NCBI GenBank assembly: GCA_018241325.1
Contig: JAFEEB010000021.1
Location: forward strand, 109,292-145,924
Direction: 5' to 3'
DNA: 36,633 nucleotides
Source of the DNA: Pseudomonadota bacterium
GTDB taxonomy: Bacteria; Pseudomonadota; Gammaproteobacteria; Burkholderiales; Burkholderiaceae_C
The position numbers and the translations under genes are program-made. The notes beneath the pieces were generated by a model, which saw nothing but the letters and a program-made list of their open reading frames with translations, was not told the DNA's origin and searched no databases. Below are positions 13,878 through 27,706 of the stretch, piece after piece. Positions within the stretch are counted from its first letter, which is position 1; each line of letters begins with the position of its first letter.

Positions 13878-14610
13878 GACGGATCTATCTACGGAGCCGG
13901 CGCCCGGCGCGGCGCCCGCGCCCATCATCGCGGTGGAGCATGTCTTCAAGTCGGTGACCGACTCCACCGGCACCCTGGATATTCTGCGCGATATCGACTT
14001 TGCGCTGGCCGCGCGCGAGACGGTGGCCATCGTCGGTGCCTCGGGCTCGGGCAAGAGCACGCTGCTGTCCATCATCGCCGGGCTGGACACACCCACCCGC
14101 GGCACGGTGCGGCTGGCGGGGCAGGACTTGTTCGCCGTGGACGAGGACGCACGCGCCGCCTGGCGCGCGCGCCAGGTCGGCTTCGTGTTCCAGAGCTTTC
14201 AGCTGCTGGGCAACCTGACCGCGCTGGAGAACGTGATGCTGCCGCTGGAGCTGGCCGGCCGCAAGGACGCACGCGCGCAGGCCGCCGAGATGCTGGCGCG
14301 CGTGGGCCTGGGCCAGCGCCTGCGCCACTACCCCAAGGTGCTCTCGGGCGGCGAGCAGCAGCGCGTGGCGCTGGCGCGCGCCTTCGTGGTGCGCCCCGCC
14401 GTGCTGCTGGCCGACGAGCCCACTGGCAGCCTGGACTTCGCCACCGGCGCCACGGTGATGGAGCTGATGTTCGAGCTGAACCGCGAGCTGGGCACCACGC
14501 TGGTGCTGGTCACGCACGACCTGGCGATCGCGGCGCGCTGCCAGCGTCGGCTGACCATCGACGCCGGGCGCGTGACCGAAGACCGTGACGAGCGCGTCGA
14601 AGCACTATGA
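13876..14610 (+). CDS. ybbA: ABC transporter ATP-binding protein, YbbA/LolD family
   Basis: This is a 244-residue ABC ATPase of the MacB/LolD class. Walker A is GASGSGKST (54-62), the signature is LSGGEQQ (156-162), Walker B is VLLADEP (176-182), and the H-loop is LVTHD. The segment SFQLLGNLTALENVMLPLELAG is typical of YbbA and LolD. ATG 13876 interlocks with the tesA start on the other strand (CATG), and no Shine-Dalgarno is visible on either side. In E. coli the permease ybbP follows ybbA. Here the gene ends at a repeat and a convergent phospholipase gene, so no partner permease lies next to it; it is either an orphan or works with a permease elsewhere. Confidence 0.87.
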   Translation: MTDLSTEPAPGAAPAPIIAVEHVFKSVTDSTGTLDILRDIDFALAARETVAIVGASGSGKSTLLSIIAGLDTPTRGTVRLAGQDLFAVDEDARAAWRARQVGFVFQSFQLLGNLTALENVMLPLELAGRKDARAQAAEMLARVGLGQRLRHYPKVLSGGEQQRVALARAFVVRPAVLLADEPTGSLDFATGATVMELMFELNRELGTTLVLVTHDLAIAARCQRRLTIDAGRVTEDRDERVEAL

Positions 14611-14665
14611 AAACAAGAGCTGCTTGCGCACAAGGGATAAGCGCTGGCGGCTGTTTTGCCTTTGG
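14608..14665. repeat. dispersed intergenic repeat, copy B
   Basis: This copy lies between the convergent ybbA and phospholipase D genes. It shares AGCTGCTTGCGC and ATAAGCGCTGG with copies A and C at the same spacing, but the stem is imperfect. The promoter-like boxes seen in A and C are degraded here (TTATCC, 16 bp, TCTTGT on the minus strand). Confidence 0.55.
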
Positions 14666-14671
14666 TTTTGG

Positions 14672-16117
14672 TCAGAGCTGAAAACCCACGGTGGCGACAA
14701 TGCCCTCGCCGATGTCGCGCCACCAGTTGGGCGGCTGCGCCGAGGCGGGCGCGCCTTGGTGCGCGGTCTGCACGATCCACTGGGCCAGCCATTCGATCTC
14801 GCGCGGCCCGTAGAAGGCGGCCATGGCCTCGTAGTTGATGAACAGGCTGCGACTGTCCAGGTTGGCCGATCCGCACAGCGCCAACGCGTCATCGACCACC
14901 ACGGCCTTGGCGTGCAGCATGGTCGGCACCAGGCGCACCTGCGCGCCGGCGGCCACCAGATCGCGCACGGCACGCCCGCGCGCCCAGTCGGCCAGCCGGT
15001 GGTTGGAGCGGTGCGGCAAGACCAGGGTGATGTGCAGCCCGCGCTTGGCGGCCAGCACCAGGGCTTCGAGCAGACCTTCGTCGGGCACGAAGTAGGGCGT
15101 GGCCAGCAGCAGGCGCCGCTCGGCATGAAAGGCGCTGGACACGAGGAGCGCGTGCAGGATGTCCTCGTGAAAGTCCGGGCCGCTGGGCACCCACTGGGCC
15201 AGGGTCAGCTCGGCGGTTGGTGTGCTCGGGTCGGGCGGCAAAGCCGGGGGCGAGCCATCGGCGCCCGCATGCCGCGCCAGGCGCTCGGCGTAGTCCAGCC
15301 GCGTGGCCTTGCGTGCACCGCGGGCAATGTGCCAGTCCCCCTCGAACAAGGCCAGAGCCTGCGCGGCCAGTGCGCCGTCGGCGACGAAGCTCAGGTCCAG
15401 CCAGGCCGGTTCGCCCACGCGGCCGATGAAGTATTCGTTGGCCATGTTGCGCCCGCCGGCCCACAGGCGCATGCCGTCGGCCACCACGATCTTGCGGTGG
15501 TTGCGCAAGTTGGTGCGCCCGCGCCCCGGAAGGCCCAGTGCCGGCACGAACAGGCGCGTTTGCACGCCGGCGCTTCGCAGCAGCGCGTCGTGGCTGTGTC
15601 CGCTCTTGAGGTTGCCGATGCTGTCGATCAGCAGGCGCACCTGCACGCCGGCGCGCGCCTGCTCGGCCAGGGCCGCGGCCACCGTGGCGCCCACCTCGTC
15701 GTCGCCCAGCACGTAGGTGCAGATGTCCAGCGTGTGGCGGCTGGCGGCAATCACGCTGCGCAGCTGCTCGAGCGCCGCGTCCCCGTCGGCAGCAAAGCGC
15801 ACGCTGGCTTGGGGCTGCGCGCCCGCCACGCCCAGCGCGGCCAACAAGCGCGTGGCCCACGGCGGCGCCGCGTGCGCCCAGGGCCCGCTGGGCGCGGGCT
15901 GGCGGTGCGTGGCCGGCCGCAACAGCTTGCGCGTGCCGAAGATCAGGAACAGCGGCAACCCCAGGTACGGAAAGGCCGCGATGCCGAACACCCAGGACAT
16001 CGCCGCATAGGGGTGGCGCCGCTGGCGCCGCACCCGCGTGACCACGATGTAGGTCAGCAAGCCCGCCGCCACGAAGGCGGAATGCTCCAGGGGGGACAGG
16101 TGGGGCAGGGCGATCAT
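14672..16117 (-). CDS. cls: cardiolipin synthase-like phospholipase D protein
   Basis: This membrane-bound phosphatidyltransferase of 481 residues is of the cardiolipin synthase type, joining two phosphatidylglycerols. Two N-terminal hydrophobic helices (about 13-28 and 41-60) anchor it. The two HKD motifs are complete: NHRKIVVADG with His207/Lys209/Asp214 and LHAKAVVVDD with His402/Lys404/Asp409, each followed by the usual GGRN or GSANLDSRS. The start at 16117 gives the standard short tail before helix 1. It is divergent from rlmB with about 100 bp between and convergent with ybbA. It could be a paralogue of ClsA with different headgroup preference; sequence alone does not tell. Confidence 0.87.
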   Translation of the reverse strand: MIALPHLSPLEHSAFVAAGLLTYIVVTRVRRQRRHPYAAMSWVFGIAAFPYLGLPLFLIFGTRKLLRPATHRQPAPSGPWAHAAPPWATRLLAALGVAGAQPQASVRFAADGDAALEQLRSVIAASRHTLDICTYVLGDDEVGATVAAALAEQARAGVQVRLLIDSIGNLKSGHSHDALLRSAGVQTRLFVPALGLPGRGRTNLRNHRKIVVADGMRLWAGGRNMANEYFIGRVGEPAWLDLSFVADGALAAQALALFEGDWHIARGARKATRLDYAERLARHAGADGSPPALPPDPSTPTAELTLAQWVPSGPDFHEDILHALLVSSAFHAERRLLLATPYFVPDEGLLEALVLAAKRGLHITLVLPHRSNHRLADWARGRAVRDLVAAGAQVRLVPTMLHAKAVVVDDALALCGSANLDSRSLFINYEAMAAFYGPREIEWLAQWIVQTAHQGAPASAQPPNWWRDIGEGIVATVGFQL

Positions 16118-16216
16118 GGGCGGCTGGCCTGCGATGATGCCTGAGTCGAACGCGGGTTGGCCATGGCTGCACCCCGCGGCGCCGACCGCTCGGCGTCGGC
16201 ATCGATAATGGCCGCC

Positions 16217-16951
16217 ATGCCATCACCCAAAGTTCTGTTCGGCTTTCATGCCGTGGGCGTGCGCCTGAAGACCGCGCCCGCGTCCATCGTCGAGATGTAT
16301 GTCGATGCCACGCGGCGCGACGCGCGGATGAAGCAGTTTCTGGCGCGCGCGGCCGAGGCGGGGGTGCGCGTGATCGAGGCCGACGGGCCGCGGCTGGCCA
16401 AGCTGTGCGGCGGCGTGGGGCACCAGGGCGTGGTGGCGCGCGTGCAGGCCATCGAAGGCGGACGCACGCTGGATGAGTTGCTGGACGATCTGGCCGATCC
16501 GCCCCTGCTGCTGGTGCTGGACGGCGTGACCGACCCGCACAACCTGGGCGCCTGCCTGCGCGTGGCCGACGGCGCCGGCGCGCACGCCGTGATCGCGCCC
16601 AAGGACCACGCCTGCGGCATCAACGCCACCGTGGCCAAGGTCGCCAGCGGCGCGGCCGAGACCATGCCCTACTTCATGGTCACCAACCTGGCGCGCACCT
16701 TGAACGAGCTGAAAGAGCGCAGCATCTGGATCATCGGCACGGCCGGAGAAGCCGAGCAAACCGTGTATCAGGCTGACTTGGCAGCGCCCACCGCCCTGGT
16801 GCTGGGCGCCGAGGGGCCAGGCCTGCGGCAATTGACGCGCAAGACCTGCGATACGCTGGTGCGCATCCCGATGATGGGCGCGGTCGAGAGCCTCAACGTG
16901 TCGGTGGCCAGCGGCGTGTGCCTGTACGAGGCGCGGCGACAACGCGGTTGA
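16217..16951 (+). CDS. rlmB: 23S rRNA (guanosine-2251-2'-O)-methyltransferase RlmB
   Basis: This SpoU-family RNA methyltransferase methylates the 2'-O of G2251 in the peptidyl-transferase loop of 23S rRNA. The 244-residue protein has an N-terminal substrate-binding domain ([13 protein letters not shown]) and the trefoil-knot SPOUT domain with its three motifs: [27 protein letters not shown] and [18 protein letters not shown]. The frame is open from 16157, but ATG 16217 matches the family N-terminus. No Shine-Dalgarno is visible. GATAAT ends 7 bp before this ATG, which would fit a leaderless transcript; an in-frame ATG at 16208 is the alternative. The gene is normal in length and motifs. Confidence 0.92.
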
Positions 16952-17543: not shown

Positions 17544-17933
17544 TCATTGCATCGAGTGCAGGCCGATGCAGTTGCCCTCGGTGTCGTTGACAAGCGCGAT
17601 GAAGCCGTGGGGCGCGATGGAGAGCTTGGGTTTCATCACCTGACCGCCGGCGGCCTGAGCGCGCGCCTGTTCGGCCGCGCAGTCGCCGCAGCCGAAGTAC
17701 ACCAGCGACCCGCCACCGCCTGAGGGCACCCCGGCCATCTTCACCAGCATGCCGTTGGCGCCGTAGCTGGCCATGTTGTCGCCGGGGAAGAAACGCATCT
17801 GCGTGCCCGGCGCCAGGCCATCGGGCTCCTTCATCGGCTCCAGCTTGCACTGGAACACACTTTCATAGAACGCCTGCGCACGCTGCATGTCCTGCACGTA
17901 GATCTCGAACCAGACGACTGGGTTGGGTTTCAT
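17544..17933 (-). CDS. VOC family (glyoxalase/bleomycin-resistance-like) protein
   Basis: This 129-residue protein of the vicinal oxygen chelate fold starts VVWFEIYVQDMQRAQAFYESVF, the standard first beta-alpha unit, and ends with GFIALVNDTEGNCIGLHSMQ, the usual last strand with the metal-ligand Glu region. It belongs to the enzyme or binding family that includes glyoxalase I, bleomycin-binding and dioxygenase-like proteins; the substrate is unknown. ATG 17933 has AAGG about 9 bp upstream. It is the last of thirteen co-directional genes read from the TetR-controlled promoter near 24726, with a gap of 92 bp to the preceding DUF1772 gene, so it may also have its own promoter. Confidence 0.82.
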   Translation of the reverse strand: MKPNPVVWFEIYVQDMQRAQAFYESVFQCKLEPMKEPDGLAPGTQMRFFPGDNMASYGANGMLVKMAGVPSGGGGSLVYFGCGDCAAEQARAQAAGGQVMKPKLSIAPHGFIALVNDTEGNCIGLHSMQ

Positions 17934-18025
17934 GATGTGCACCTTTGGTGGGTTGAGAACGGAGAGGGCGAGTGATCGGATGTACCGCTTGAAGCGCCCG
18001 TTCGCAGCGCATGGCTTGAACCCGC

Positions 18026-18520
18026 TCATCGTCCGACGAGAAGCACCATCAACAGGGCGGCAATCACCGCGGACACCAGCGTCCTGACCGCATTCCAGCG
18101 GTTCCAGCGTGGCTCGAATCTGGCGCGTGCGGCACTCAGGGACGATGCATCCAGCGCCTCTACGTTCAGTGCATGGAGCCTCTTGTTCAGCGGAATGTTG
18201 GTGGCAATGGTTGGCCAGTGAACGCCAAGAACGTTGGCCAGTGCCGCCACCATTAGCAGCCAGCGCCAAGCACCGCTCAACTGGCCTACTCCCATGATCG
18301 TCACGGCGATCAGCGCCAGGAACGAACCCACCCACACCAGCATGAAGATCGGTTGATTGTTCTGAATGACGCCGTCCATCGCCTGAAAAGCCCGGATAAA
18401 TTCCCTGTCGTTCAATCCTCTGATGCCGGGCATGACCACCACGGCGAAGGCAAACAAGAAGCCCGCGACCAAAGAGCGCAGCAGGGTGGTCAGGACCAGG
18501 GCGCTTTCAAAGAGAGTCAT
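18026..18520 (-). CDS. DUF1772 (anthrone oxygenase-like) membrane protein, paralogue 1
   Basis: This is a 164-residue protein with about four transmembrane helices (roughly 5-32, 57-77, 83-105, 142-162) of the DUF1772 family, whose fungal members are annotated as anthrone oxygenases. The conserved NQPIF and NIPLNKRLHA segments and the FEPRWNRWNAVRT motif before the last helix can be seen. A second copy lies at 21909-22403; by hand alignment the two proteins have the same length and are about three quarters identical, and the bases just upstream of the start codons are also similar. The biochemical role in bacteria is not established. It sits between GST and VOC genes on the same strand. Confidence 0.82.
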   Translation of the reverse strand: MTLFESALVLTTLLRSLVAGFLFAFAVVVMPGIRGLNDREFIRAFQAMDGVIQNNQPIFMLVWVGSFLALIAVTIMGVGQLSGAWRWLLMVAALANVLGVHWPTIATNIPLNKRLHALNVEALDASSLSAARARFEPRWNRWNAVRTLVSAVIAALLMVLLVGR

Positions 18521-18605
18521 GGTCTTCGTCCCTCAGTGTTGAACGGTGACTTGCATGGCGATCTCCCAGCGTAATGGGATGGTGGGCGCCGTCAACGGGT
18601 TGTGA

Positions 18606-19268
18606 TCATCGGTCGATGTCCGGCGCGCCGACGCCTTGTCGCTCGGCGCACAGGCGCAGCGTGCGCTGCCAAGCGGGGCGCGCAAGGGCCCGTGCGCCGT
18701 AAGTTTTCAGCTGCGCGTACGGGTCGAGCAGGTCGGTATCACGTTCGGCCCGCAACACGGTCGCCAGCACAATGTCGGCCACCGTGAAGGTGTCGCAGGC
18801 GATCCATTCGCGGCCCTCCAGCCGGCGCTCCAGTCCATCGAGCCAGCGGCACGCATCCTTGCGCAGCGACGCAAGCCCCTCGCGCGCACCTGGGCCGCGC
18901 ACGCCGATGCCGATCATCGTCATCTCGAATAGCGGCCGCTCGACGGTGGCGATGGAGGCAAAGCACCACTGCATGACTTCGGTGCGGCCCGGCAAACCCA
19001 ACGGAATCAGCTTGCCCGCCTTCTCGGCGATGTAGAGCACGATCGCGCCCGACTCGGCGACGACGAAGCCCGCATCGTCGATCACGGGCACCTGGCGGAA
19101 GGTGCTGAGCCGGCTGTACTCAGGCCCGTCGAACTCGCCGCCTACGTAGTCCAGCGCGTGTACGCGATAGGGCAGGCCGGTTTCCTCCAGCGCCCATTGC
19201 ACGCGCAGGTCGCGGCCCTCGCAAGCCATGCCGGGGTAAACGCGGCCGAAGGCGTAGAGGGTGATCAT
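18606..19268 (-). CDS. glutathione S-transferase family protein
   Basis: This cytosolic GST-type protein of 220 residues has an N-terminal thioredoxin-like domain (MITLYAFGRVYPGMACEGRDLRVQ and the cis-Pro in TFRQVPVIDD, followed by the glutathione-binding AESGAIVLYIAEK). A C-terminal helical domain ends with the N-capping WIACDTFTVADIVLATVLR motif. Such proteins conjugate glutathione to electrophiles or isomerise them; which residue activates glutathione is not obvious here. It lies 24 bp from the SRPBCC gene upstream in the same transcript. Together with the GFA gene at the head of the operon it points to glutathione-linked chemistry. Confidence 0.88.
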   Translation of the reverse strand: MITLYAFGRVYPGMACEGRDLRVQWALEETGLPYRVHALDYVGGEFDGPEYSRLSTFRQVPVIDDAGFVVAESGAIVLYIAEKAGKLIPLGLPGRTEVMQWCFASIATVERPLFEMTMIGIGVRGPGAREGLASLRKDACRWLDGLERRLEGREWIACDTFTVADIVLATVLRAERDTDLLDPYAQLKTYGARALARPAWQRTLRLCAERQGVGAPDIDR

Positions 19269-19292
19269 GGTGATGGCTTCACGGCAAGGCAG

Positions 19293-19751
19293 CTACGCGC
19301 CACTTTCGTCCGGAATCTGCGCTTCGACCAGTTGCGCGAGCAAGGTCAGCGACTCTTGCCAGCCGAGGTAGCACGCTTCGACCGGAATGGCGGCAGGAAT
19401 GCCCTCCTGGGTGATGTTCAGCTCGGTCCCGCAGCTCACCGGTGTGAACGTGATGGTGGTGCGCATTTCGCCCGGCAGGTTCGGGTCGTCGAAGCGATCC
19501 GTGTGAACCAGCCGCTTGCCAGGTTCCAACTCCAGATACTGGCCGCCAAACGAGTGGCTGGCGCCGGTGGAGAAGTTGGTGAACGACATCCTGTACGAAC
19601 CACCCACGCGCACGTCGATGGCGTGCACCTTGCCCGTGAACCCGTGCGGCGGCAGCCACTTGGCCATGGCGTCGGCATCGACAAAGGCCTTGAAAATGCG
19701 CTCGGCGGGCGCCTTGAGGACGCGGTGAAGTTTGACGGTTCCGGTTGACAT
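19293..19751 (-). CDS. SRPBCC family protein (AHSA1/START-like), copy 1
   Basis: This is a 152-residue helix-grip protein of the Aha1/CalC-type SRPBCC family. The N-terminal VKLHRVLKAPAERIFKAFVD and the WLPPHGFTGKVHAIDVRVGG segment are the conserved opening; the C-terminal helix is YLGWQESLTLLAQLVE. The fold forms a hydrophobic pocket for small, often aromatic or lipid-like, ligands; bacterial members of this group have no agreed role. The ATG at 19751 is preceded by GGAG. The frame is open to 19805, but that extension overlaps the upstream gene's end and is less likely. A second family member lies at 22436-22843 with low similarity. Confidence 0.85.
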   Translation of the reverse strand: MSTGTVKLHRVLKAPAERIFKAFVDADAMAKWLPPHGFTGKVHAIDVRVGGSYRMSFTNFSTGASHSFGGQYLELEPGKRLVHTDRFDDPNLPGEMRTTITFTPVSCGTELNITQEGIPAAIPVEACYLGWQESLTLLAQLVEAQIPDESGA

Positions 19752-19788
19752 GGTTTTGATCTCCAGTGGGTTGTTCAATGCCCTGAAT

Positions 19789-20388
19789 TCAGCCGCGCCG
19801 CGCATCGGCGTCGGCTTGAATGGATGGTCCGCTGCCCTGGCGCCGGTAGTGCATGGCGACCGCGCCGCTGCGAAGGGGTTTCGCGCAAATCAGATCGAGC
19901 CGTCGCGTGCCGGGCAGCCCGCTCTGGTACAGGGTCGGGCCATGGCCGACGATCCTGGGGTGGACGAGAAACAGGTACTCGTCGATCAGATCCAGCCGGT
20001 CCAGCGCGGTCGCGAGCTTGCCGCTGCCAAGGAGCACGCCGGCCGGGGTCGCGTCCTTGAGCGCCTGCACGCCCGTGCGCAAGTCGCCGGCGATGTGATG
20101 GCTGTGGCGCCACGGAAAGTCCCTTCGCGTCGACGACACCACGTACTTGGGTTTGGTCTCCAGCTTGAGCGCCCACGCGCGGATCGCCGGCGATGCCTCG
20201 ACCTCGCCGCGGGCGACCAGGGGCCAGTAGCCCTCCATCATCTCGTAGGTCACGCGGCCCCAAAGCATCGCCCCTGCGTCGTCCATGAGGCGGGTGAAGA
20301 AGGCATGTGTCTCGTCATCGGCGATCCCTTCCCGATGGTCGATGCAACCGTCGAGGGTGACGTTGATGCTGAAGGTCAAGATTCCCAT
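19789..20388 (-). CDS. dihydrofolate reductase family protein (RibD C-terminal domain), copy 1
   Basis: This 199-residue protein has the DHFR/RibD-C fold. Characteristic blocks are FSINVTLDGCID at the N-terminus, MLWGRVTYEMMEGYWP for the phosphate and ring contacts, KYVVSSTRR, and GVLLGSGKLATALDRLDLIDEY plus HPRIVGHGPTLY near the C-terminus. Family members are NADPH-dependent reductases, but stand-alone bacterial copies mostly have no known substrate. ATG 20388 is chosen because the N-terminus then starts directly on strand 1; the open frame to 20754 is antisense shadow of the next gene. It follows the second DHFR-like gene by 22 bp. Confidence 0.85.
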   Translation of the reverse strand: MGILTFSINVTLDGCIDHREGIADDETHAFFTRLMDDAGAMLWGRVTYEMMEGYWPLVARGEVEASPAIRAWALKLETKPKYVVSSTRRDFPWRHSHHIAGDLRTGVQALKDATPAGVLLGSGKLATALDRLDLIDEYLFLVHPRIVGHGPTLYQSGLPGTRRLDLICAKPLRSGAVAMHYRRQGSGPSIQADADARRG

Positions 20389-20410
20389 GGCTGTGAATTC
20401 CTCGTAGCGG

Positions 20411-21091
20411 CTAACGCGTGAATGAATGACCGGCGCCCGTGTGTCCCTGCCGCCGCAGGACGACATGCGCGGCCTTCTCGGACGCGACGAACTCAACGCA
20501 TTCGTATCCCAGGGCCCGCAAGTCAAGCCCCGAGAACAGGGGCTCTCCGCACCCGAGCAGGACGGGCGAGATGGCGATGTGCAGCTCATCGACGAGGCCC
20601 TCACGAAGGTACTGTCGGATGGTGTCGGCCCCACCGCCGATGCGCACGTCCTTTGCGCCGGCGGCCTCGCGCGCTTTTGCGAGCACCTCGTGAATGCCGC
20701 CCGTGATGAAGTGGAACGTCGTGCCGCCTTCCATCTCGATGGGGGGACGGGCATGGTGGGTCAGGACGAACACCGGCACGTGGTAGGGCGGGTTGTCGCC
20801 CCACCAGCCTTTCCAATTCATGTCAGGCCAGTCGCCACGAATGGGGCCGAACATGTTCCTACCGAGAATCCAGGCACCGACATTTTGAAAGCCACGGGCG
20901 GCGAAGTCATCATCCACCCCCGTCGTGCCGCCCTCTTTGCCGAACAAGGTCCGCTGCAAGGTGCGTGTCGGCAGCAACCACTGGTGCAGTTCGGTCGCGC
21001 CAACCCCAAGCGGATTGTTGAGGTCCTGATTCGGCCCTGCGCCGTATCCGTCAAGCGAGATGGTGAAGCTGTTGACGCGGATTCGTGTCAT
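20411..21091 (-). CDS. dihydrofolate reductase family protein (RibD C-terminal domain), copy 2
   Basis: This is a second DHFR/RibD-C protein of 226 residues, clearly distinct from its neighbour. It opens with RVNSFTISLDGYGAGPNQ, has NVGAWILGRNMFGP as the nucleotide-contact region, VPVFVLTHHARPPIEMEGGTTF, and IGGGADTIRQYLREGLVDEL followed by HIAISPVLLGCGEPLF. It is likely NAD(P)H-dependent with unknown substrate. The start at 21091 gives the standard N-terminus; an in-frame ATG exists at 21127. Tandem, diverged copies of this family in a stress-type operon suggest two related substrates. Confidence 0.85.
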   Translation of the reverse strand: MTRIRVNSFTISLDGYGAGPNQDLNNPLGVGATELHQWLLPTRTLQRTLFGKEGGTTGVDDDFAARGFQNVGAWILGRNMFGPIRGDWPDMNWKGWWGDNPPYHVPVFVLTHHARPPIEMEGGTTFHFITGGIHEVLAKAREAAGAKDVRIGGGADTIRQYLREGLVDELHIAISPVLLGCGEPLFSGLDLRALGYECVEFVASEKAAHVVLRRQGHTGAGHSFTR

Positions 21092-21138
21092 CTTGTGCTT
21101 TCGTTTGGGCGCATAGCGCCGGATCACAAATGGCCCGT

Positions 21139-21840
21139 TCAGACCGTTTCACTGGTGCGCGCCCATTGCGCCACCGGCCGGCCGTCACGCCACCACCATG
21201 AGCCGGCGCTGTCCTGCTGCGGCCAGCCGGCCGGCGAGCTTTCCCACGACTCCTGCCTGCCGAAAACCGTGAGGTCGAGCAACTGCAGCGTGGGCAGCAT
21301 GGCTTCGACGCCGCGCTGCGTGGTCTCATAGGTCTGGAACACGTCGCCGCCGACGCGCAGGTAGCAGCGCAGGTCGCCGCCGTCGCGGATCTTCGGCAGC
21401 GCGTCCGACGTGTCGGCCGTCGAGTACCAAGGCATCGTCCAGCCCATGAAGTCGCGGTAGGCGGCAAGCTCGGGCCAGGAGCCGGCGCTGAAGACGGCGT
21501 AGCTCACGTCGCGCTCTGCAAGGTAGGCCCGCACGGTGTCATTCATTGCGACCTGCGTGTGCGTGCAGCCGGGGCATTGCTTGTCGTGCGGCGCATCGCG
21601 CTTCCACATGAAGTGATAGACGAGCAGCATCTGCCGGCCCTCGAACACGTCGTGCAGGCGCACCGGGCCGCCGGCGCCCACGACCGTGACCGACTCCATG
21701 CGCGTCATCGGCAGCCGCCGACGCGCCGCGGCCAGCGCATCGCCGGCGCGCGTGTGCGCCTTTTCGCGCGCCAGCAGTTCGGCGCGCGCGCGTTCCCACT
21801 CGGCGCGACCGACGATTTGGGGAGTGGGCGAAGCATTCAT
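21139..21840 (-). CDS. DUF899 thioredoxin-like protein
   Basis: This 233-residue protein belongs to DUF899, a thioredoxin-fold family of unknown function. The defining region is VYHFMWKRDAPHDKQCPGCTHTQ, where CPGC is the CxxC-type motif, followed by LAERDVSYAVFSAGSWPELAAYRDFMGWTMPWYS. ATG 21840 has AGGAG about 8 bp upstream, much better than the upstream in-frame ATG at 21912. A redox role is plausible from the CxxC and the fold but is not demonstrated for the family. It is the seventh gene from the promoter and sits between DUF1772 and DHFR-like genes. Confidence 0.82.
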   Translation of the reverse strand: MNASPTPQIVGRAEWERARAELLAREKAHTRAGDALAAARRRLPMTRMESVTVVGAGGPVRLHDVFEGRQMLLVYHFMWKRDAPHDKQCPGCTHTQVAMNDTVRAYLAERDVSYAVFSAGSWPELAAYRDFMGWTMPWYSTADTSDALPKIRDGGDLRCYLRVGGDVFQTYETTQRGVEAMLPTLQLLDLTVFGRQESWESSPAGWPQQDSAGSWWWRDGRPVAQWARTSETV

Positions 21841-21908
21841 GGCGTTTTCTCCTGAAGTTGAAGCGCCGCTTCTTGGAGTCTCCAACTGCAGCGCGTGGTA
21901 TGAGAGGT

Positions 21909-22403
21909 TCATCGTCCGGCGAGAACAACCATCAACAAGACGGCGACCAGGGTGGATACCAGTGTCCTGACCAGGTTCCAGCGGTTCCAGCGCGGCTCGA
22001 AGCTGGCGCGCGCGGCGCTCACCGATGTGTCATTCGACGCTTCGACGTCCACGGCATGCAGTTGTTTGTTCAGCGGGATGTTGATGGCAAAGGTCGGCCA
22101 CTGAACGCCGAGAACGTAGGCGAGCGCGGTCGCCACCAACAGCCAGCGCCAGCCGCCGGCCAACTGGCTCACCCCCACGATCGCTGCGACGATCAGCGCC
22201 ACGAACGAACCCATCCACACCAGCAGGAAAATCGGCTGGTTGTTCTGGATCACCCCGTCCATCACCTGAAAGGCGCGGACAAAGTCCTTGTCTTTCAAGC
22301 GCCTGATGCCGGGCATGACCACCACGGCGAAGGCAAACAAAAAGCCCGCAACCAGAGAACACAGCAAGGTGGTCAGAACCAGAGCGCTCTCGAAGCCGTG
22401 CAT
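21909..22403 (-). CDS. DUF1772 (anthrone oxygenase-like) membrane protein, paralogue 2
   Basis: This four-helix membrane protein of 164 residues is a close paralogue of the one at 18026-18520, with about three quarters of residues identical by hand alignment and no gaps. The conserved stretches LVAGFLFAFAVVVMPGIR, MDGVIQNNQPIF, NIPLN and FEPRWNRWN are shared. The bases around the start (CATGGT.TTCGTCC on the plus strand) also match, so the duplication included the ribosome-binding region. It lies 32 bp from the SRPBCC gene upstream. Function as for paralogue 1: unknown in bacteria, named after fungal anthrone oxygenases. Confidence 0.82.
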   Translation of the reverse strand: MHGFESALVLTTLLCSLVAGFLFAFAVVVMPGIRRLKDKDFVRAFQVMDGVIQNNQPIFLLVWMGSFVALIVAAIVGVSQLAGGWRWLLVATALAYVLGVQWPTFAINIPLNKQLHAVDVEASNDTSVSAARASFEPRWNRWNLVRTLVSTLVAVLLMVVLAGR

Positions 22404-22435
22404 GGTTTTCGTCCTTCCGTGCCGGGCGGGCGGCG

Positions 22436-22843
22436 TCAGGCGTGCGTCTCGACGTGGCGCTTGAAGCTGTTCAGGATGGCTTGCCAGCCCTGGCGCTGCT
22501 GATCGATAGGGTGTTCCGACTCGGCATCGAAAGTGACGCGGATGGTGACGCCATCCTTGTCCTCCACGAACTCGACCATGCCCACCCGTTCGCCGAACGC
22601 GTATTCGATCAACTTGTTTGAAACCACTTTCGTGTAGGTGCCGGCGAAGTCGAAACCGAAACTACCGTCCTTGGCCTCCATGCGCGAGGTGAACGCCCCA
22701 CCTTCGCGCAGATCCACGCTTGCGGCCGTGGTGTGCCAATCCTCCGACGCAGCGTTCCATTGCATGATGTCGCTGGGCGTGGTGTAGGTCTTCCAGACCT
22801 TTGCGACCGGTGCTTTTACGTTGGTTTGCACTGTGATTTTCAT
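22436..22843 (-). CDS. SRPBCC family protein (AHSA1-like), copy 2
   Basis: This is a 135-residue START/SRPBCC helix-grip protein. MKITVQTNVKAPVAKVWKTYTTPSDIMQWNAASEDW is the conserved beginning, and GWQAILNSFKRHVE is the long C-terminal helix; between them are the antiparallel strands that form the ligand cavity. Members of this subgroup often sit next to PhnB-type VOC genes, as here (85 bp from one). No ligand is known. The start ATG is unambiguous, since the protein begins directly on the first strand. Confidence 0.87.
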   Translation of the reverse strand: MKITVQTNVKAPVAKVWKTYTTPSDIMQWNAASEDWHTTAASVDLREGGAFTSRMEAKDGSFGFDFAGTYTKVVSNKLIEYAFGERVGMVEFVEDKDGVTIRVTFDAESEHPIDQQRQGWQAILNSFKRHVETHA

Positions 22844-22928
22844 GTTGATGCCTTGGTTCGAATACTGATCGCCTGCTGATCGGGAGCAGCGGAAGGGGGA
22901 GGGTTCAGCCGTCGGATCGGCGGGTGCT

Positions 22929-23414
22929 TCAATCGCGCACGGCCGCTTCGATGGCCGCGACGTCGATTTTTTTCATCTGCATCATGGCGTCGAAGGCGCG
23001 CTTGGCGGCGGCGCGGTCGGGACCGGTATACGCTTTGGTCAAAGCGATGGGCGTGATCTGCCACGAGATGCCCCATTTGTCCTTGCACCAGCCGCATTCG
23101 CTCTCCTGGCCGCCGTTGCCGACGATGGCGTTCCAGTAGCGGTCGGTCTCGGCCTGATCGACGGTGGCGACCTGAAACGAGAACGCCTCGCTGTGCTTGA
23201 AGGCGGGTCCGCCATTGAGTCCCAGGCAGGGAATGCCCAGCACGGTGAATTCGACGGTCAGCGCGTCGCCTTGCTTGCCGTCCGGGTAGTCGCCCGGCGC
23301 GCGGTGCACCGCGCCGACCGAAGAGTCGGGGAAAGTCCGGGCGCAAAAGCGCGCCGCCTCTTCAGCGTCGCGGTCGTACCAAAGGCAGATGGTGTTCTTG
23401 GCGGGTGTTGTCAT
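22929..23414 (-). CDS. VOC family protein, PhnB/demethylubiquinone-methyltransferase-like
   Basis: This is a 161-residue VOC-fold protein of the group mislabelled 3-demethylubiquinone methyltransferase. NTICLWYDRDAEEAARFCARTFPDS is the first unit, followed by VEFTVLGIPCLGLNGGP and FSFQVATVDQAETDRYWNAIVGNGGQESECGWCKDKWGISWQITP, the diagnostic stretch of the family. A C-terminal AFDAMMQMKKIDVAAIEAA helix completes it. The enzyme activity is unknown; there is no methyltransferase motif. It is 15 bp from the next VOC gene, so the two are certainly co-transcribed. Confidence 0.87.
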   Translation of the reverse strand: MTTPAKNTICLWYDRDAEEAARFCARTFPDSSVGAVHRAPGDYPDGKQGDALTVEFTVLGIPCLGLNGGPAFKHSEAFSFQVATVDQAETDRYWNAIVGNGGQESECGWCKDKWGISWQITPIALTKAYTGPDRAAAKRAFDAMMQMKKIDVAAIEAAVRD

Positions 23415-23429
23415 GGCGCTTGTCCCGGA

Positions 23430-23882
23430 TCAGGTCGGTGCCACCACGTTCACCAGCCACGGCGTGCCGAAGCGATCCGTGGTCATGCCGAAACCGGGCG
23501 ACCAAAAGGTGGGTGCATACGGCATCACGGTTTGGCCGCCCTGTGCCAACGCGTCGAACAGTCGCTTTCCTTCGGCGACGTCGGCAGCCTGGATCGACAC
23601 CCACAGACCCTGCGGTTTTTGATAGCCGCCACCGCAGGTGGCGGGGTCTTGTCCGGGCGCCACGGGCATGGTGTCCGAGCCCATCAGCGCTTGATCCTTT
23701 GCCTGCAGGTGCACATGCATGATGCGCTTTTTGGCCGCGTCGGGTAGCGGCGGCATTCCCTCGCCAGCGGGCATCTCGCCGAAGGTGCTCGTGTGGACGA
23801 TGGTGCCTTTGAACAGCTTGGCGTAGAAGGCAAAAGCCTCGGCACAGTTGCCGTCGAAGTTGAGGTAGGGGATGAATTGCAC
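23430..23882 (-). CDS. VOC family protein, PhnB/glyoxalase-like
   Basis: This 150-residue VOC protein of the PhnB type has the first unit IPYLNFDGNCAEAFAFYAKLFKG and the second GLWVSIQAADVAEGKRLFDALAQGGQ, ending in FGMTTDRFGTPWLVNV with the canonical metal-site region. It resembles glyoxalase-like antibiotic-resistance and unknown PhnB proteins. The substrate is not known. It forms a pair with the VOC gene 15 bp downstream; the two families are commonly neighbours in Proteobacteria. Confidence 0.87.
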   Translation of the reverse strand: MQFIPYLNFDGNCAEAFAFYAKLFKGTIVHTSTFGEMPAGEGMPPLPDAAKKRIMHVHLQAKDQALMGSDTMPVAPGQDPATCGGGYQKPQGLWVSIQAADVAEGKRLFDALAQGGQTVMPYAPTFWSPGFGMTTDRFGTPWLVNVVAPT

Positions 23883-23947
23883 GTGGTTCTCCTCGGGGTG
23901 GGTTGGGGAAACTGACGGGGTTGGAAATGTCGGGCGCGCGCGGTCCG

Positions 23948-24295
23948 TCAGGCCGAGCGGCCGTCGTGCTGCTTGATGGTCAACGCGTCCAGGTCGATCC
24001 CTTCGACGCAGCGCACGTTGATGGCGGCGACGGCATGGCCCTTGGGGTCGACGCCTTCGCCGTAGGGGTGAATGCCGCAGTTCGGGCAGAAGCGGTGCCG
24101 GATCACCTGCTCGTTGAAGGTGTAGCTCGACGCCGCGTCTTCAGGCGTGGTGAGCTTGAGCCCGGCGCGCGGCATGAACCACAGCAACGATCCCTTGCGC
24201 TGGCAGATCGAGCAGTTGCACGCTAGCACCTCCTTGATCTCGCCCTCGAACTCGACCGCCACGCGTCCGCAATGGCAACTGGCCTTGTATTTCAT
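23948..24295 (-). CDS. GFA family protein (glutathione-dependent formaldehyde-activating enzyme-like)
   Basis: This 115-residue zinc protein of the GFA (Mss4-like) fold carries seven cysteines in the family arrangement: Cys7 and Cys9 in ASCHCG, Cys26, 28 and 31 in ACNCSICQRKG, and Cys70 and 73 in FCPNCG. In the founding enzyme these bind two zinc ions and accelerate formation of S-hydroxymethyl-glutathione; most homologues have other or unknown roles. ATG 24295 is chosen over the upstream ATG at 24316 because GAGGA precedes it by about 6 bp. It is the second gene of the TetR-controlled operon and shares glutathione as likely cofactor with the GST gene. Confidence 0.87.
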   Translation of the reverse strand: MKYKASCHCGRVAVEFEGEIKEVLACNCSICQRKGSLLWFMPRAGLKLTTPEDAASSYTFNEQVIRHRFCPNCGIHPYGEGVDPKGHAVAAINVRCVEGIDLDALTIKQHDGRSA

Positions 24296-24337
24296 CGTGA
24301 GTCCTCGTTGAGTCATGTGGCTTGATGGCCATCGGCG

Positions 24338-24691
24338 CTACGCGTTCACCAGCACGCGAAAACCGCCAAAGATCATGCGCTGGCCGTCGAACGGCATTTC
24401 CTTGGGGCAGCGCGGGTCTTCCATCACGGCCTTCATGCCGGTGTCGCGCGCCTCGCGCGAGGGCCACACGATCCACGAGAACACTACGGTTTCATCGTCC
24501 TTGCGCTTGACGGCCATCGGCATCGAGGTGAGCTTGCCCTCGGGCACGTCGTCGCCCCAAGTCTCGACGACTTGGGTGGCGCCGTGCTCCCGGAAGATCT
24601 TGGCGGTCGTGTCCGCCAGCCGGCGAAACGCCTCCTTGTTGGCGGTGGGGACGGCGATCAGAAAGCCATCGACGTAGGCATCGGATTTCAT
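24338..24691 (-). CDS. DUF1428 family protein
   Basis: This is a 117-residue DUF1428 (YbaA-like) protein with a ferredoxin-like alpha/beta barrel fold and unknown function. The signature segments are YVDGFLIAVPTANKEAFRRLA, VVETWGDDVPEGKLTS, VFSWIVWPSREARD and MPFDGQRMIFGGF. ATG 24691 has AAGGA about 9 bp upstream; the in-frame ATG at 24721 overlaps the promoter and is unlikely. It is the first gene of the thirteen-gene operon, with the predicted transcript start only about 25 bp upstream, so it is the gene most directly controlled by the divergent TetR regulator. Confidence 0.87.
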   Translation of the reverse strand: MKSDAYVDGFLIAVPTANKEAFRRLADTTAKIFREHGATQVVETWGDDVPEGKLTSMPMAVKRKDDETVVFSWIVWPSREARDTGMKAVMEDPRCPKEMPFDGQRMIFGGFRVLVNA

Positions 24692-24706
24692 GGCGGCAGT
24701 TCCTTT

Positions 24707-24721
24707 GTGGACGATGTACAC
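24707..24721. promoter_or_regulatory. TetR operator half-palindrome site 1
   Basis: GTGGACGATGTACAC is an inverted repeat (GTGGAC, 3 bp, GTACAC) with one mismatch. It lies directly downstream of the -10 box of the minus-strand promoter, touching it, and is the partner of the similar site at 24745-24759. Centres are 38 bp apart. Confidence 0.65.
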
Positions 24722-24749
24722 TTATACGCTTGATGGATGTCGATGTGAA
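24721..24749 (-). promoter_or_regulatory. promoter of the 13-gene minus-strand operon
   Basis: On the minus strand, TTCACA (24744-24749) and TATAAG (24721-24726) are separated by 17 bp, close to the sigma-70 consensus. The -35 box lies inside operator site 2 and the -10 box touches operator site 1, so a bound dimer at either site would block RNA polymerase. Confidence 0.65.
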
Positions 24750-24759
24750 CAGTGTCCAC
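24745..24759. promoter_or_regulatory. TetR operator half-palindrome site 2
   Basis: GTGAACAGTGTCCAC is an inverted repeat (GTGAAC, 3 bp, GTCCAC) with one mismatch. It shares the pattern GTGnACnnnGTnCAC with site 1. It overlaps the -35 box of the operon promoter and lies 16 bp upstream of the tetR-type start codon, so autoregulation is likely. Confidence 0.65.
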
Positions 24760-24775
24760 GTAAAACCAAGTAAAA

Positions 24776-25447
24776 ATGTCGGATAAGGCTTCGCGTGCCG
24801 CGCGCGGCACCTACCGCCACGGCGACCTTCGCCGCGCGCTGCTGGAGGCGGGTGTGGCGCTGGCGCGCGAAGGCGGGCCGCAGGCGATCGTGCTGCGCGA
24901 GGCCACGCGTCGCGCCGGCGTGGTGCCCAACGCCGCGTACCGGCATTTCGCCAACCACCAGGCGCTGTTCGAGGCGGTGCGCGGCGTGGCGCTGTCGTAT
25001 CTGTCGCGGTCGATCGAGGCCGAGATCGCCGCCGCGCACCGCCTGCGCGAGCCGCGCCGGCGCGCGCGCGCCGCGCTGCGCGGCGTGGGCCTGGGCTACC
25101 TGCGCTTCGCGCGCCAGGAGCCGGGGCTGTTTCGCACCGCGTTTGCCGCGCGGCCGTTCGGCGTCGATGAGTTTGCTGGCGACGACGACGCGCCGCGCGG
25201 CGCCAGCGGGCTGGATCCGTTCCAACTGCTCTGCCAGGCGCTCGACGGCCTGGTCGAAGCCGGCCTGCTGCCGCCCGCACGCCGCCCGGGCGCCGAGTGG
25301 ATGGCCTGGTCGGCGGTGCATGGCATGGCGTTCCTGATGCTCGACGGTCCCTTGCGCGGCCTCCAGGACGCCGCATGTGGCCAACTTGCCGAGCGGCTGG
25401 TGGCGATGGTCGAACAGGGCCTGCTGGCCGCGCCGCACGCGCCGTGA
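24776..25447 (+). CDS. TetR/AcrR family transcriptional regulator
   Basis: This is a 223-residue TetR-family repressor. The N-terminal DNA-binding domain covers about 13-62: GDLRRALLEAGVALAREGG, then the helix-turn-helix IVLREATRRAGVVPNAAYRHFANHQALFEAV. The C-terminal ligand domain includes GLGYLRFARQEPGLFRTAF and a final amphipathic helix, a type commonly called WHG. The gene is divergent from the DUF1428 gene with an 84-bp gap that contains two similar 15-bp inverted repeats, a typical arrangement for a local repressor that also controls itself. The ligand is unknown; the target genes suggest an electrophile, aromatic compound or antibiotic. Confidence 0.9.
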   Translation: MSDKASRAARGTYRHGDLRRALLEAGVALAREGGPQAIVLREATRRAGVVPNAAYRHFANHQALFEAVRGVALSYLSRSIEAEIAAAHRLREPRRRARAALRGVGLGYLRFARQEPGLFRTAFAARPFGVDEFAGDDDAPRGASGLDPFQLLCQALDGLVEAGLLPPARRPGAEWMAWSAVHGMAFLMLDGPLRGLQDAACGQLAERLVAMVEQGLLAAPHAP

Positions 25448-25500: not shown

Positions 25501-26649
25501 TCACAGGCGCACCGGCGACGGCGGGTATTCGAGCTGCATCCTGACGACGTCGCCGGTGCGTTGGCCATAGCGCACGGCGATCGCTTGCAGTGCGTGGCGC
25601 AACGCGTGAGCGGGTGTCCGCTCGGCGAATGACTCGACCCTGTCGTCGAGCGTCCAGCTAGCCGCGACGCGATCCGGCACGATGCGCACGCCCTGGCTGG
25701 TGGTGACGGGCTGTGCGGCACCGGCGAACGTGACGGCGCCAGATCGATAGGTGCGCGACCAGGCATCGGCCACCAGCCCCAGCGCCACTTCGTCCATGCC
25801 CGGGCGCAGTTCGATGCCCATCTTTTCGTGGTTCCAGAACGCCAGCCTGTTCTCGAGAACCGTGGTGGCGAACGGGCGCGTGAATCGGAAGGCGCTGCTG
25901 TCGTGCCGTGCGTCCCATGAAGTCAGGCCGAGCTGATGGGCGACATCTTCGGCCTTGGCGCGCCCGGCGATGGCTTGGATCAACGTCAGCGTCATCGGCA
26001 TCGCCGCCGTGATGCCGGTGGTCGTCGCCACGCCCCGGTCCACCACCATCCGGCGGTCGGGCACGTAATCGATCGAAGGATGGCGCCGCAGCAACTCCTT
26101 GACGTAGTACCAGTGCGTGGTGGCGCGCCGACCGTCCAGCAGGCCTGCCGCGGCCGCCACTTTGGCGCCGGCGCAGACCGCGATGATGGTGGCGCCGCCG
26201 GCAGCCTGGCGCTGCAGCCAGGCGACGACCGTGGGGTCGTCGTCGCGGCTCATGGCCGGCACGATCACGTAGTCGGCGCCCTGGGGGTGCTGTTGATCGA
26301 ATTCGGCCAGGGTGGCGTCGGGCAGGACCGTGAGCGCCGGATAGAGCTGGACCGACCCCGGCCCGCTGGCCAGCAGGAGGACGTCGGCGACGCCCGCGCG
26401 CCGCAGGATTCCCGCCGGCATCAAATAGTCATTGGTCTCGGTGGCGTCGTTGATGCCGACGACGGCCACCAGCGGCCGCGCGCGCTTGGGCGGCTGCAGG
26501 CCCGCCAGCATGGCCGCCATCTCCGACTCTGGTACCTGCGGCGCCGAGACCACGGAGGCCGGCGGCAGGCTGAACAGCCAGCCGCCGAAGCCGAGCAGCA
26601 GCAGCGCCAGTGCGACGGCGCTCCCGGCGAGAAAGGTTCTGGGCTTCAT
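25501..26649 (-). CDS. membrane-anchored DJ-1/PfpI family protein
   Basis: This 382-residue protein has one N-terminal transmembrane helix (LAGSAVALALLLLGFGGWLF) followed by a DJ-1/PfpI domain. The nucleophile elbow is IIAVCAGAKVAAAAGLL with the conserved Cys, and ATTHWYYVKELLRRHPSIDYVPDRRMV matches the corresponding part of GlxA-type regulators. The region after about residue 245 has no helix-turn-helix and forms an extra domain I cannot name. The start at 26649 is preferred because GGAG lies 6 bp upstream; ATG 26661 is in frame. It is divergent from a GlxA-type regulator with an operator between them. It may be an enzyme of the isonitrile hydratase type or a sensor; this is not decidable from sequence. 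Confidence 0.8.
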   Translation of the reverse strand: MKPRTFLAGSAVALALLLLGFGGWLFSLPPASVVSAPQVPESEMAAMLAGLQPPKRARPLVAVVGINDATETNDYLMPAGILRRAGVADVLLLASGPGSVQLYPALTVLPDATLAEFDQQHPQGADYVIVPAMSRDDDPTVVAWLQRQAAGGATIIAVCAGAKVAAAAGLLDGRRATTHWYYVKELLRRHPSIDYVPDRRMVVDRGVATTTGITAAMPMTLTLIQAIAGRAKAEDVAHQLGLTSWDARHDSSAFRFTRPFATTVLENRLAFWNHEKMGIELRPGMDEVALGLVADAWSRTYRSGAVTFAGAAQPVTTSQGVRIVPDRVAASWTLDDRVESFAERTPAHALRHALQAIAVRYGQRTGDVVRMQLEYPPSPVRL

Positions 26650-26702
26650 CCGTGACTCCATGATGTTTCGATCAGTCCAGCCAACCGTACGCTCTTGCGG
26701 TG

Positions 26703-26737
26703 TGGCAGCAATGACAATTTCATGGTAATTTCTGCCA
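26703..26737. promoter_or_regulatory. inverted-repeat operator of the GlxA-type regulator
   Basis: TGGCAG (26703-26708) and CTGCCA (26732-26737) are the ends of a 35-bp inverted repeat; the arms agree as TGGCAGnAATnACnAT. It fills the short gap before the regulator gene and ends at its start codon. AT-rich inner bases contrast with the GC-rich surroundings. Confidence 0.65.
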
Positions 26738-27706
26738 ATGCGCCGCGTCGTGCTCGTCGTCTACCCGGGGTTCGAACTGCTCGACTTGTCGGGCCCGGCG
26801 TCGGTGTTCAACGGCGCCAATCGCGCCTTGGGCCAGCACGGCGCGGCGCCTGCATACGGCATTGAACTGCTGTCCGCGGCCGGCGGGCAGATCAGCAGCA
26901 GCAGCGGCGTCGCGGTCGATACGCGCGCCATCGACGCCAGGGCTGCCGGCCGGATCGACACCCTGCTCATCGTCGGCGCGGAGCGCGCGCCTTTGCAGGC
27001 CGCGATGGCCGACCCGCTCCTGCTGAAGGTGATGCCGGGGCTGGCGCGCGGCGCCCGCCGCTTCGGCTCGGTCTGCACCGGCGTGTTCGTGCTGGCGCGG
27101 CTCGGCCTGATCGAGGGCCGGCGCGTCACGACGCACTGGGACGCCAGCGCGCCGCTGGCGCGCGCCTGCGGCAGTACCGTCGATGCCGACGCCCTGTACG
27201 TCACCGATGGCCGGCTCTGGACTTCGGCCGGCGTCAGCACGGGCATCGACATGGCGCTGGCCATGGTGGCGCAAGACCTGGGCGCCGCCGTGGCCGGCGA
27301 GATCGCCAAGCGCCTCGTGCTGTACGCGCGGCGCCCGGGGTATCAGTCGCAGTTCAGCCCGTTGCTGAAGGCGCAGGCGCGCGCCGGCAGCCCGTTTGGC
27401 GAACTGATGGACTGGATTCAGACGCACCTCGACGCCCCGCTCGACGTGCCGGCGCTGGCCGACCGCGCCGCCATGACAGAGCGCACCTTTCACCGCAAGT
27501 TCACCGCCGCCGTCGGGCAGACGCCGGCGCGCTTCGTCGACACGGTACGGCTGGACGCGGCGCGCATGCTGCTGTCCCAGGGCCAGTCGCTGAAAGCCGT
27601 CGCGCGGCAGGTGGGCCTGTTTCCGGCCACGCGGCTGGCCGACGCGTTCGAGCGCCGTTTCGGCGTGACGCCGCGGCTGTTTCGCGAACTGCACGGCGAG
27701 TTCTGA
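26738..27706 (+). CDS. GlxA family transcriptional regulator (DJ-1/PfpI + AraC HTH)
   Basis: This is a 322-residue regulator with an N-terminal DJ-1/PfpI ligand domain (RVVLVVYPGFELLDLSGPASVF; FGSVCTGVFVLARLGLIEGRRVTTHW, with the conserved Cys) and a C-terminal AraC-type DNA-binding domain (LDVPALADRAAMTERTFHRKFTAAVGQTPARFVDTVRLDAARMLL, then QVGLFPATRLADAFERRFGVTPR). The nucleotides before the ATG carry no Shine-Dalgarno but TAATTT ends 6 bp upstream, which fits a leaderless transcript. It probably controls the divergent membrane DJ-1 gene and perhaps itself through the inverted repeat between them. The ligand is unknown. Confidence 0.92.
   Translation: MRRVVLVVYPGFELLDLSGPASVFNGANRALGQHGAAPAYGIELLSAAGGQISSSSGVAVDTRAIDARAAGRIDTLLIVGAERAPLQAAMADPLLLKVMPGLARGARRFGSVCTGVFVLARLGLIEGRRVTTHWDASAPLARACGSTVDADALYVTDGRLWTSAGVSTGIDMALAMVAQDLGAAVAGEIAKRLVLYARRPGYQSQFSPLLKAQARAGSPFGELMDWIQTHLDAPLDVPALADRAAMTERTFHRKFTAAVGQTPARFVDTVRLDAARMLLSQGQSLKAVARQVGLFPATRLADAFERRFGVTPRLFRELHGEF

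Follow-up and report, generated by a model that had tools for sequence, protein, structure and literature searches.

A putative inducible xenobiotic-resistance operon with exchangeable genes behind a TetR-type regulator and paired operators

Introduction

Why would thirteen small genes, several of them from families of no known function that tend to turn up singly, stand in one row beside a single regulator gene? This question is raised by a 36,633-nucleotide stretch of a Burkholderiaceae_C genome (3.82 Mb in 93 contigs), hereafter called the window, in which thirteen consecutive minus-strand genes run from position 24691 down to 17544, between rlmB (16217-16951, plus strand) and a divergent gene for a TetR-family repressor (24776-25447, plus strand). 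The interval 17544-25447 holds these thirteen genes and, on the plus strand, the regulator gene. The original prediction had proposed that one TetR controls the whole run and that the encoded system captures and reduces a reactive aromatic or carbonyl compound. We conclude that the locus is probably an inducible, modular xenobiotic-resistance operon, which would be switched by the TetR protein on twin operators.

Results

A divergent regulator with paired operators

The regulator has a TetR_N helix-turn-helix and a C-terminal domain (TetR_C_33; PF13305 and PF00440 above cut-off), and a conserved palindrome is present in the intergenic region shared with the operon, which is the layout of a TetR-repressed divergent operon. 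We derived this palindrome, about RTGKACRNYGTNCAY, by comparing the TetR-operon gaps of 36 loci. Sites with at most one mismatch to the pattern occur at two places only in the window, both in this gap: operator 1 (24745-24759) is situated 16 bp ahead of the TetR start, and operator 2 (24707-24721), 38 bp from operator 1, is 15 bp ahead of the start of the DUF1428 gene.

In total, 65 loci with this TetR gene were read: the genus supplied 15, counting the window, the order and DUF899 searches 10, and the family a further 40. At least one operator site (at most one mismatch) was found in 64 of the 65 and two sites in 50, where the commonest spacing was 32 bp, about three helical turns (28 of the 50 loci). 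Two-base-block shuffles of the same gaps gave 0.007 sites per locus. As 36 of the loci had served to derive the pattern, the held-out 29 provide the fairer figures: 28 had at least one site and 23 had two. Furthermore, when 29 genomes of the genus were scanned, all 10 close pairs of perfect matches fell at the TetR locus. Judged by the twin operators and their conservation across loci, control of the operon by one TetR, as had been predicted, is well supported. The cysteines of the regulator are poorly conserved (C153 in 16 of 64 sequences, C201 in 6 of 64), which favours ligand binding over a thiol switch.

We also read 14 operator matches away from the TetR loci, picked mostly for matching on both strands and not randomly. 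Two of them stand just ahead of a family-like stretch of a gene of the kind found in the operon: a stand-alone DUF899 gene in genome G012 (L272 3615-4338) and a RibD-GFA pair in genome G004 (L274 2746-3526), which is 78% complete and gave no TetR match. In both cases the longest open frame runs through the operator-like site, and the sites count as upstream on the assumption of a later start codon. Ten of the other 12 matches are inside long open frames. The DUF899 gene and the RibD-GFA pair are possible second targets of such a regulator, to be taken as leads only.

A restricted gene pool in variable order

The open reading frames and the start codons chosen among the candidates bear out the predicted thirteen minus-strand genes with gaps of 15-92 bp, and Pfam agrees with the predicted families. 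Read from the TetR side, the genes encode a DUF1428 protein (PF07237; 24338-24691); a GFA family protein with intact CxC and CxxC motifs (PF04828; 23948-24295); VOC1, a PhnB/YjdN-like protein under the YjdN cut-off with a GTG start (PF06983/PF00903; 23430-23882); VOC2 with a CGWC motif (PF06983; 22929-23414); the AHSA1-type protein SRPBCC1 (PF08327; 22436-22843); DUF1772 copy a (21909-22403), matched by Anthrone_oxy (PF08592), which we take to be the former DUF1772; a DUF899 protein with a CPGC motif (PF05988; 21139-21840); two RibD_C/DHFR-like reductases (PF01872; 20411-21091 and 19789-20388); a second AHSA1 protein, SRPBCC2 (19293-19751); a glutathione S-transferase (GST; 18606-19268); DUF1772 copy b, again Anthrone_oxy (18026-18520); and, as the last gene, VOC3, a Glyoxalase family protein with a CGDC motif (PF00903; 17544-17933). 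The gaps are, in this order, 42, 65, 15, 85, 32, 68, 47, 22, 37, 24, 85 and 92 bp, sizes that depend on the start codons picked from the candidate list.

Other genera also have this TetR with its operators and these gene families, which shows that the arrangement in the window is more than chance. The recurring pool comprises VOC, DUF1428, SRPBCC, DUF899, RibD/DHFR-like, GFA, GST, DUF4256 and other genes, counted by similarity to the proteins of the window and its sister loci, so that unlike genes may be missed. At the 23 loci adjoining rlmB, 22 distinct line-ups were counted, each with between 3 and 15 recognised genes; the longest was that of genome G766 (15 genes, including YCII and DUF4256), followed by the window with 13. 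VOC1 was present in all 23, VOC2-type genes in 22, an SRPBCC gene in 22, VOC3 in 20 and DUF1428 in 19, and GST (7), GFA (6), RibD1 (5) and DUF899 (5) were found less often. DUF1428 was the first gene in 15 of these 23 loci, and VOC1 stood ahead of VOC3 in 20 of 20.

The original prediction had looked to gene order in relatives to tell a coherent set from a chance run. The exact order of the window was seen in the window genome only, whereas the order in relatives is neither fixed nor random: among the 12 loci with the closest TetRs (57 of 66 pairs, those sharing at least four genes), mean shared adjacency was 0.70 versus 0.41 in 500 shuffles, whose maximum was 0.52. The recurring pool and this non-random order support a coherent set.

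Association of the families with the regulator was also seen from the side of the genes. Within the genus, 9 of the 12 DUF1428 copies found and 4 of the 6 DUF899 copies found stand at TetR loci. DUF899 was over the cut-off in 46 of 249 phylum genomes, and 12 of 30 DUF899 loci outside the TetR loci had a pool-type neighbour within about 1.5 kb, with no TetR claimed there. In genome G024 (L046 10449-11639), GFA is broken up into two frames and VOC2 is cut down to a frame of 88 aa; besides growth, decay of the operon seems to occur.

A gene for a DHA2-like exporter of the major facilitator superfamily (MFS) was found in 9 of the 65 loci. When five of these were compared with NCBIfam, three passed TIGR00711, one was just under its cut-off (222.8 versus 230.2) and one was a partial frame. 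Two of the nine loci (L167 and L198) adjoin rlmB, and L167, whose exporter gene is known by 71% identity only, has a close TetR. Together with GFA, GST and the CxxC-containing DUF899, the exporters lend weight to the predicted detoxification theme.

Distribution and transfer of the regulator

At E ≤ 1e-30 and with the genome of the window included, the TetR was detected in 14 of the 29 genus genomes, 61 of the 399 family genomes (from 24 of 141 genera), 10 of the 399 order genomes and 8 of the 396 phylum genomes; 49 of the 61 family matches were fetched and 12 left out. The operon adjoins rlmB in 23 of the 65 loci, including 12 of the 15 in the genus. As to the other three, the locus of G024 is elsewhere, with rlmB on another contig, and two end at contig ends. 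Of all the loci counted as not adjoining rlmB, at least four run into contig ends (L048, L049, L170, L199).

In the RlmB tree, all members of the genus clustered together (93/94), and the window and G041 were sisters (97/97). In the TetR tree, the window joined G041, G024 and nine loci from other genera (100/99), separately from the remaining congeners. Regulator transfer between genera is the simplest reading of this conflict; an old duplication with unequal loss is the alternative. In a VOC2 tree of 33 rows, all over 100 bits, two types (VOC2 and VOC2b) split at 100/100, and five loci with the other TetR type (L048, L050, L172, L174, L203) have the VOC2 type of the window. Between the VOC2 protein of the window and plasmid-borne proteins of Gemmatirosa and of the cyanobacteria Kovacikia and Crinalium, identity is 84-86%, an unusually high value for different phyla, which suggests a protein that is either very conserved or widely passed on.

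Relatives of the TetR (43-64% identity) were also found on 11 plasmid records, and seven of these were read: Streptomyces sp. Caat 7-52, Rubrobacter radiotolerans, two Deinococcus, two Cupriavidus and one Caballeronia. An upstream site within one mismatch is present in six of the seven. Annotated DHFR-family genes are present near the regulator in Streptomyces, both Deinococcus and Rubrobacter, a DUF899 gene in one Deinococcus, and a weak VOC match (34%) in Caballeronia; Rubrobacter has an MFS protein 52% identical to the exporter of the sister operons, and both Deinococcus have alpha/beta hydrolases and a lactonase. In genome G816, from another class of the phylum, the operators are 33 bp apart and the first gene is SRPBCC-like, by a short match only.

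Base composition, repeats and the DUF1772 pair

The G+C content of the operon is below that of its surroundings. We rejected this as sole evidence of recent import, because 21 of 22 related operons measured are likewise poorer in G+C than their flanks. An integron-like array was also rejected: among the 20 largest of 42 direct-repeat families, which consist of the DUF1772 pair and short matches, no repeated recombination site recurs between genes. Terminator-like sites across the region numbered 7 versus 6.5 expected by chance.

The two DUF1772 copies are 74% identical at the amino acid level, 3.9 kb apart and probably the result of a duplication. The nearest relatives found outside, at 50-61% identity, belong to Acidobacteria, Desulfosarcina and relatives, Gemmatimonadota, cyanobacteria and others. 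DUF1772 was discarded as a guide to the system, since only 3 of 31 loci from distant phyla (L021, L027, L030) had a pool-like neighbour. For DUF899, a sequence search found no solved structure.

Discussion

Proposed function

We propose that the TetR repressor, bound to the two palindromic operators, would shut off its own gene and the divergent thirteen-gene operon. A toxic small molecule, or its product, would bind TetR, free the operators and switch on the whole set, presumably as a single transcript. Going by family membership, VOC and SRPBCC proteins may bind or convert the compound, its NAD(P)H-dependent reduction would probably fall to the RibD/DHFR-like proteins, GST and GFA may route it through glutathione, and DUF899 could supply thiol-disulfide chemistry, while a DHA2-type exporter would do part of the job in some sister operons. 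Evolution would have kept the switch, and often also the place beside rlmB, and swapped the genes behind it, leaving each species with a different kit.

Could the genes instead encode a fixed pathway by which one aromatic or polyketide-like compound is broken down or made, and whose substrate is sensed by TetR? The family names Anthrone_oxy and Polyketide_cyc2 point this way, as does ChrI, a DUF1772 membrane protein that is a maturation partner of ribosomally synthesized and post-translationally modified peptides. Copy a is distantly related to ChrI, and the window copies are far under the cut-off of that family (92.8 bits for copy a versus 275). According to Pfam, the thirteen genes include no ring-cleaving, CoA-ligase or polyketide synthase family and no ketosynthase or other scaffold-making enzyme of a type II polyketide or anthrone pathway. 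DUF1772 occurs in such an operon in the window genome only, and gene content, with 22 line-ups at 23 loci beside rlmB, differs from species to species more than a single fixed pathway would allow, which makes this explanation quite improbable. The reactive aromatic or carbonyl substrate of the original prediction did not find support either; such a compound is one possibility among several.

Cysteines offer another explanation, namely defence against thiol-seeking agents (metalloids, mercury-like agents or soft electrophiles) through VOC1, VOC2, VOC3, SRPBCC2, DUF899 and GFA. With matches restricted to those that reached a set identity and 85% or more of the length, conserved cysteines were found in VOC1 (34/34 and 33/34), VOC2 (four at 16/16), VOC3 (22/23 and 23/23) and SRPBCC2 (two at 14/14). 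CGWC is present in 19 of 19 VOC2 rows versus CGWL or CGWV in the 15 readable of 16 VOC2b rows, and CxxC in 8 of 8 aligned DUF899 sequences. The cysteine content of the operon is 1.62% versus 1.00% in seven neighbouring proteins, TetR included, but two of the seven are cysteine-rich as well (RlmB, 2.05%; the product of 14585-16144, 1.35%). Moreover, DUF1428 and SRPBCC1 have no conserved cysteine, relatives elsewhere also have the GFA cysteines and one of those in VOC1, and no metal-resistance family was found among the thirteen genes, so that we regard this defence as unlikely. Finally, a permissive spot might gather stress genes under loose selection, with the control by TetR limited to the first gene or two. 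Content that differs strongly across species, the split GFA and shortened VOC2 of G024 and gaps of up to 92 bp would agree with this. It is also a doubtful explanation, given the restricted recurring pool with its partly conserved order, thirteen co-directional genes with short gaps, the single gap in the window that holds operators, and the same link of TetR, operator and pool away from rlmB and in other phyla. Given the DHA2-type exporter genes of nine sister operons, the cysteine pairs conserved in several products and the lack of such conservation in TetR, we favour ligand-induced protection against a small toxic molecule.

Several observations weigh against a TetR-switched resistance operon of this kind. 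The 65 loci are mutually related and hence do not count as that many independent tests; the two operators of the window are spaced by 38 bp and not by 32; one TetR locus (L179) has no operator, and Deinococcus aetherius has only a two-mismatch site upstream of TetR. In the genus scan, the single-site pattern was no commoner than its reversed control, which indicates that single off-locus sites are mostly chance. No pool gene adjoins the TetR gene at 6 of the 65 loci (L131, L132, L173, L179, L196, L200), 12 have one VOC gene only, 2 have DUF1428 only, and eight or more pool genes are present in only 6; the two Cupriavidus records, unannotated in this region, showed no recognised pool gene near TetR. 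In the window itself, a weak terminator-like site is present where DUF899 ends, on the strand of the operon (21145-21132), Pfam found no DHA2 exporter among the thirteen genes, and the restriction of DUF1772 to this one genome counts here as well.

Comparison with known systems

TetR-controlled detoxification operons are already well known. In NemR-nemA-gloA of Escherichia coli, a repressor that responds to electrophiles controls a reductase and reaches a glyoxalase by read-through (PMC3739934), and a repressor over such genes is what the window operon shares with it. NemR senses via cysteines, whereas the TetR cysteines are not conserved here; the window operon also differs from that system in its other families, its 13 genes, its divergent layout and its twin operators. 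CssR of Corynebacterium glutamicum, a TetR-family repressor, likewise acts on a palindrome in a divergent intergenic region; it has TAA(G)TG-N13-CA(G)TTA as operator and, for targets, an ABC transporter operon and its own operon (PMC8176726), and both operator and targets differ from those in the window. The arqI-gloA2 glyoxal operon of Pseudomonas aeruginosa, induced by a toxic aldehyde, has two genes, for a small ABM-domain protein and a glyoxalase (PMC12274486), and its likeness is thematic only. Operons of DHA2/EmrB-type drug exporters (TIGR00711) resemble the nine exporter-containing sister loci, whereas the window operon, made up of small enzymes and binding proteins, lacks an exporter. 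The pool also resembles genes that occur near ECF41/42 sigma factors. A YCII gene in one sister operon (L169) recalls the YCII-domain neighbours of ECF42 (PMC8999054). Unlike ECF42 loci, the window has TetR and operators, and the Pfam scan of the thirteen genes, TetR and six neighbouring frames found no ECF sigma factor gene.

As far as our literature searches go, a conserved regulator-operator unit with exchangeable genes is new; the open-licence literature, which leaves most subscription journals outside, gave no paper joining this pool to a TetR. We tentatively suggest that TetR and its paired operators might make up a mobile regulatory 'socket' that has persisted across phyla while taking in, exchanging and rearranging genes of one restricted pool of orphan families (DUF1428, DUF899, DUF4256, PhnB-like VOC, AHSA1, RibD_C, GFA), which would place these scattered families in a single unrecognised toxicant-response regulon whose inducers are of one class. 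A shared switch and a defined DNA site would tie these families to one signal, and the ligand of one TetR could reveal the trigger of the whole pool. The 65 loci, whose recognised pool genes number from 0 to 15, provide a natural series for studying gain, loss and reordering in an operon behind a constant control region.

Neighbouring genes

Beyond the TetR gene, 25501-27706 holds a DJ-1/PfpI-type gene (minus strand) and a gene for a GlxA-like AraC regulator with a DJ-1 domain (plus strand), followed by a gene of the metallo-beta-lactamase fold. In G041 (L105) the latter directly adjoins TetR, and the pair looks either inserted in the window or lost in G041. On the other side, the flanking landmark rlmB encodes a SpoU-type methyltransferase according to Pfam. 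Genome G787 (L166 13512-14719) has a chromate-transporter gene (PF02417) and a second similar frame between VOC3 and rlmB. In the window, a 519-aa frame without a Pfam match (14585-16144) is situated beside rlmB, and similar frames (51-61%) adjoin rlmB in ten of the congener loci read.

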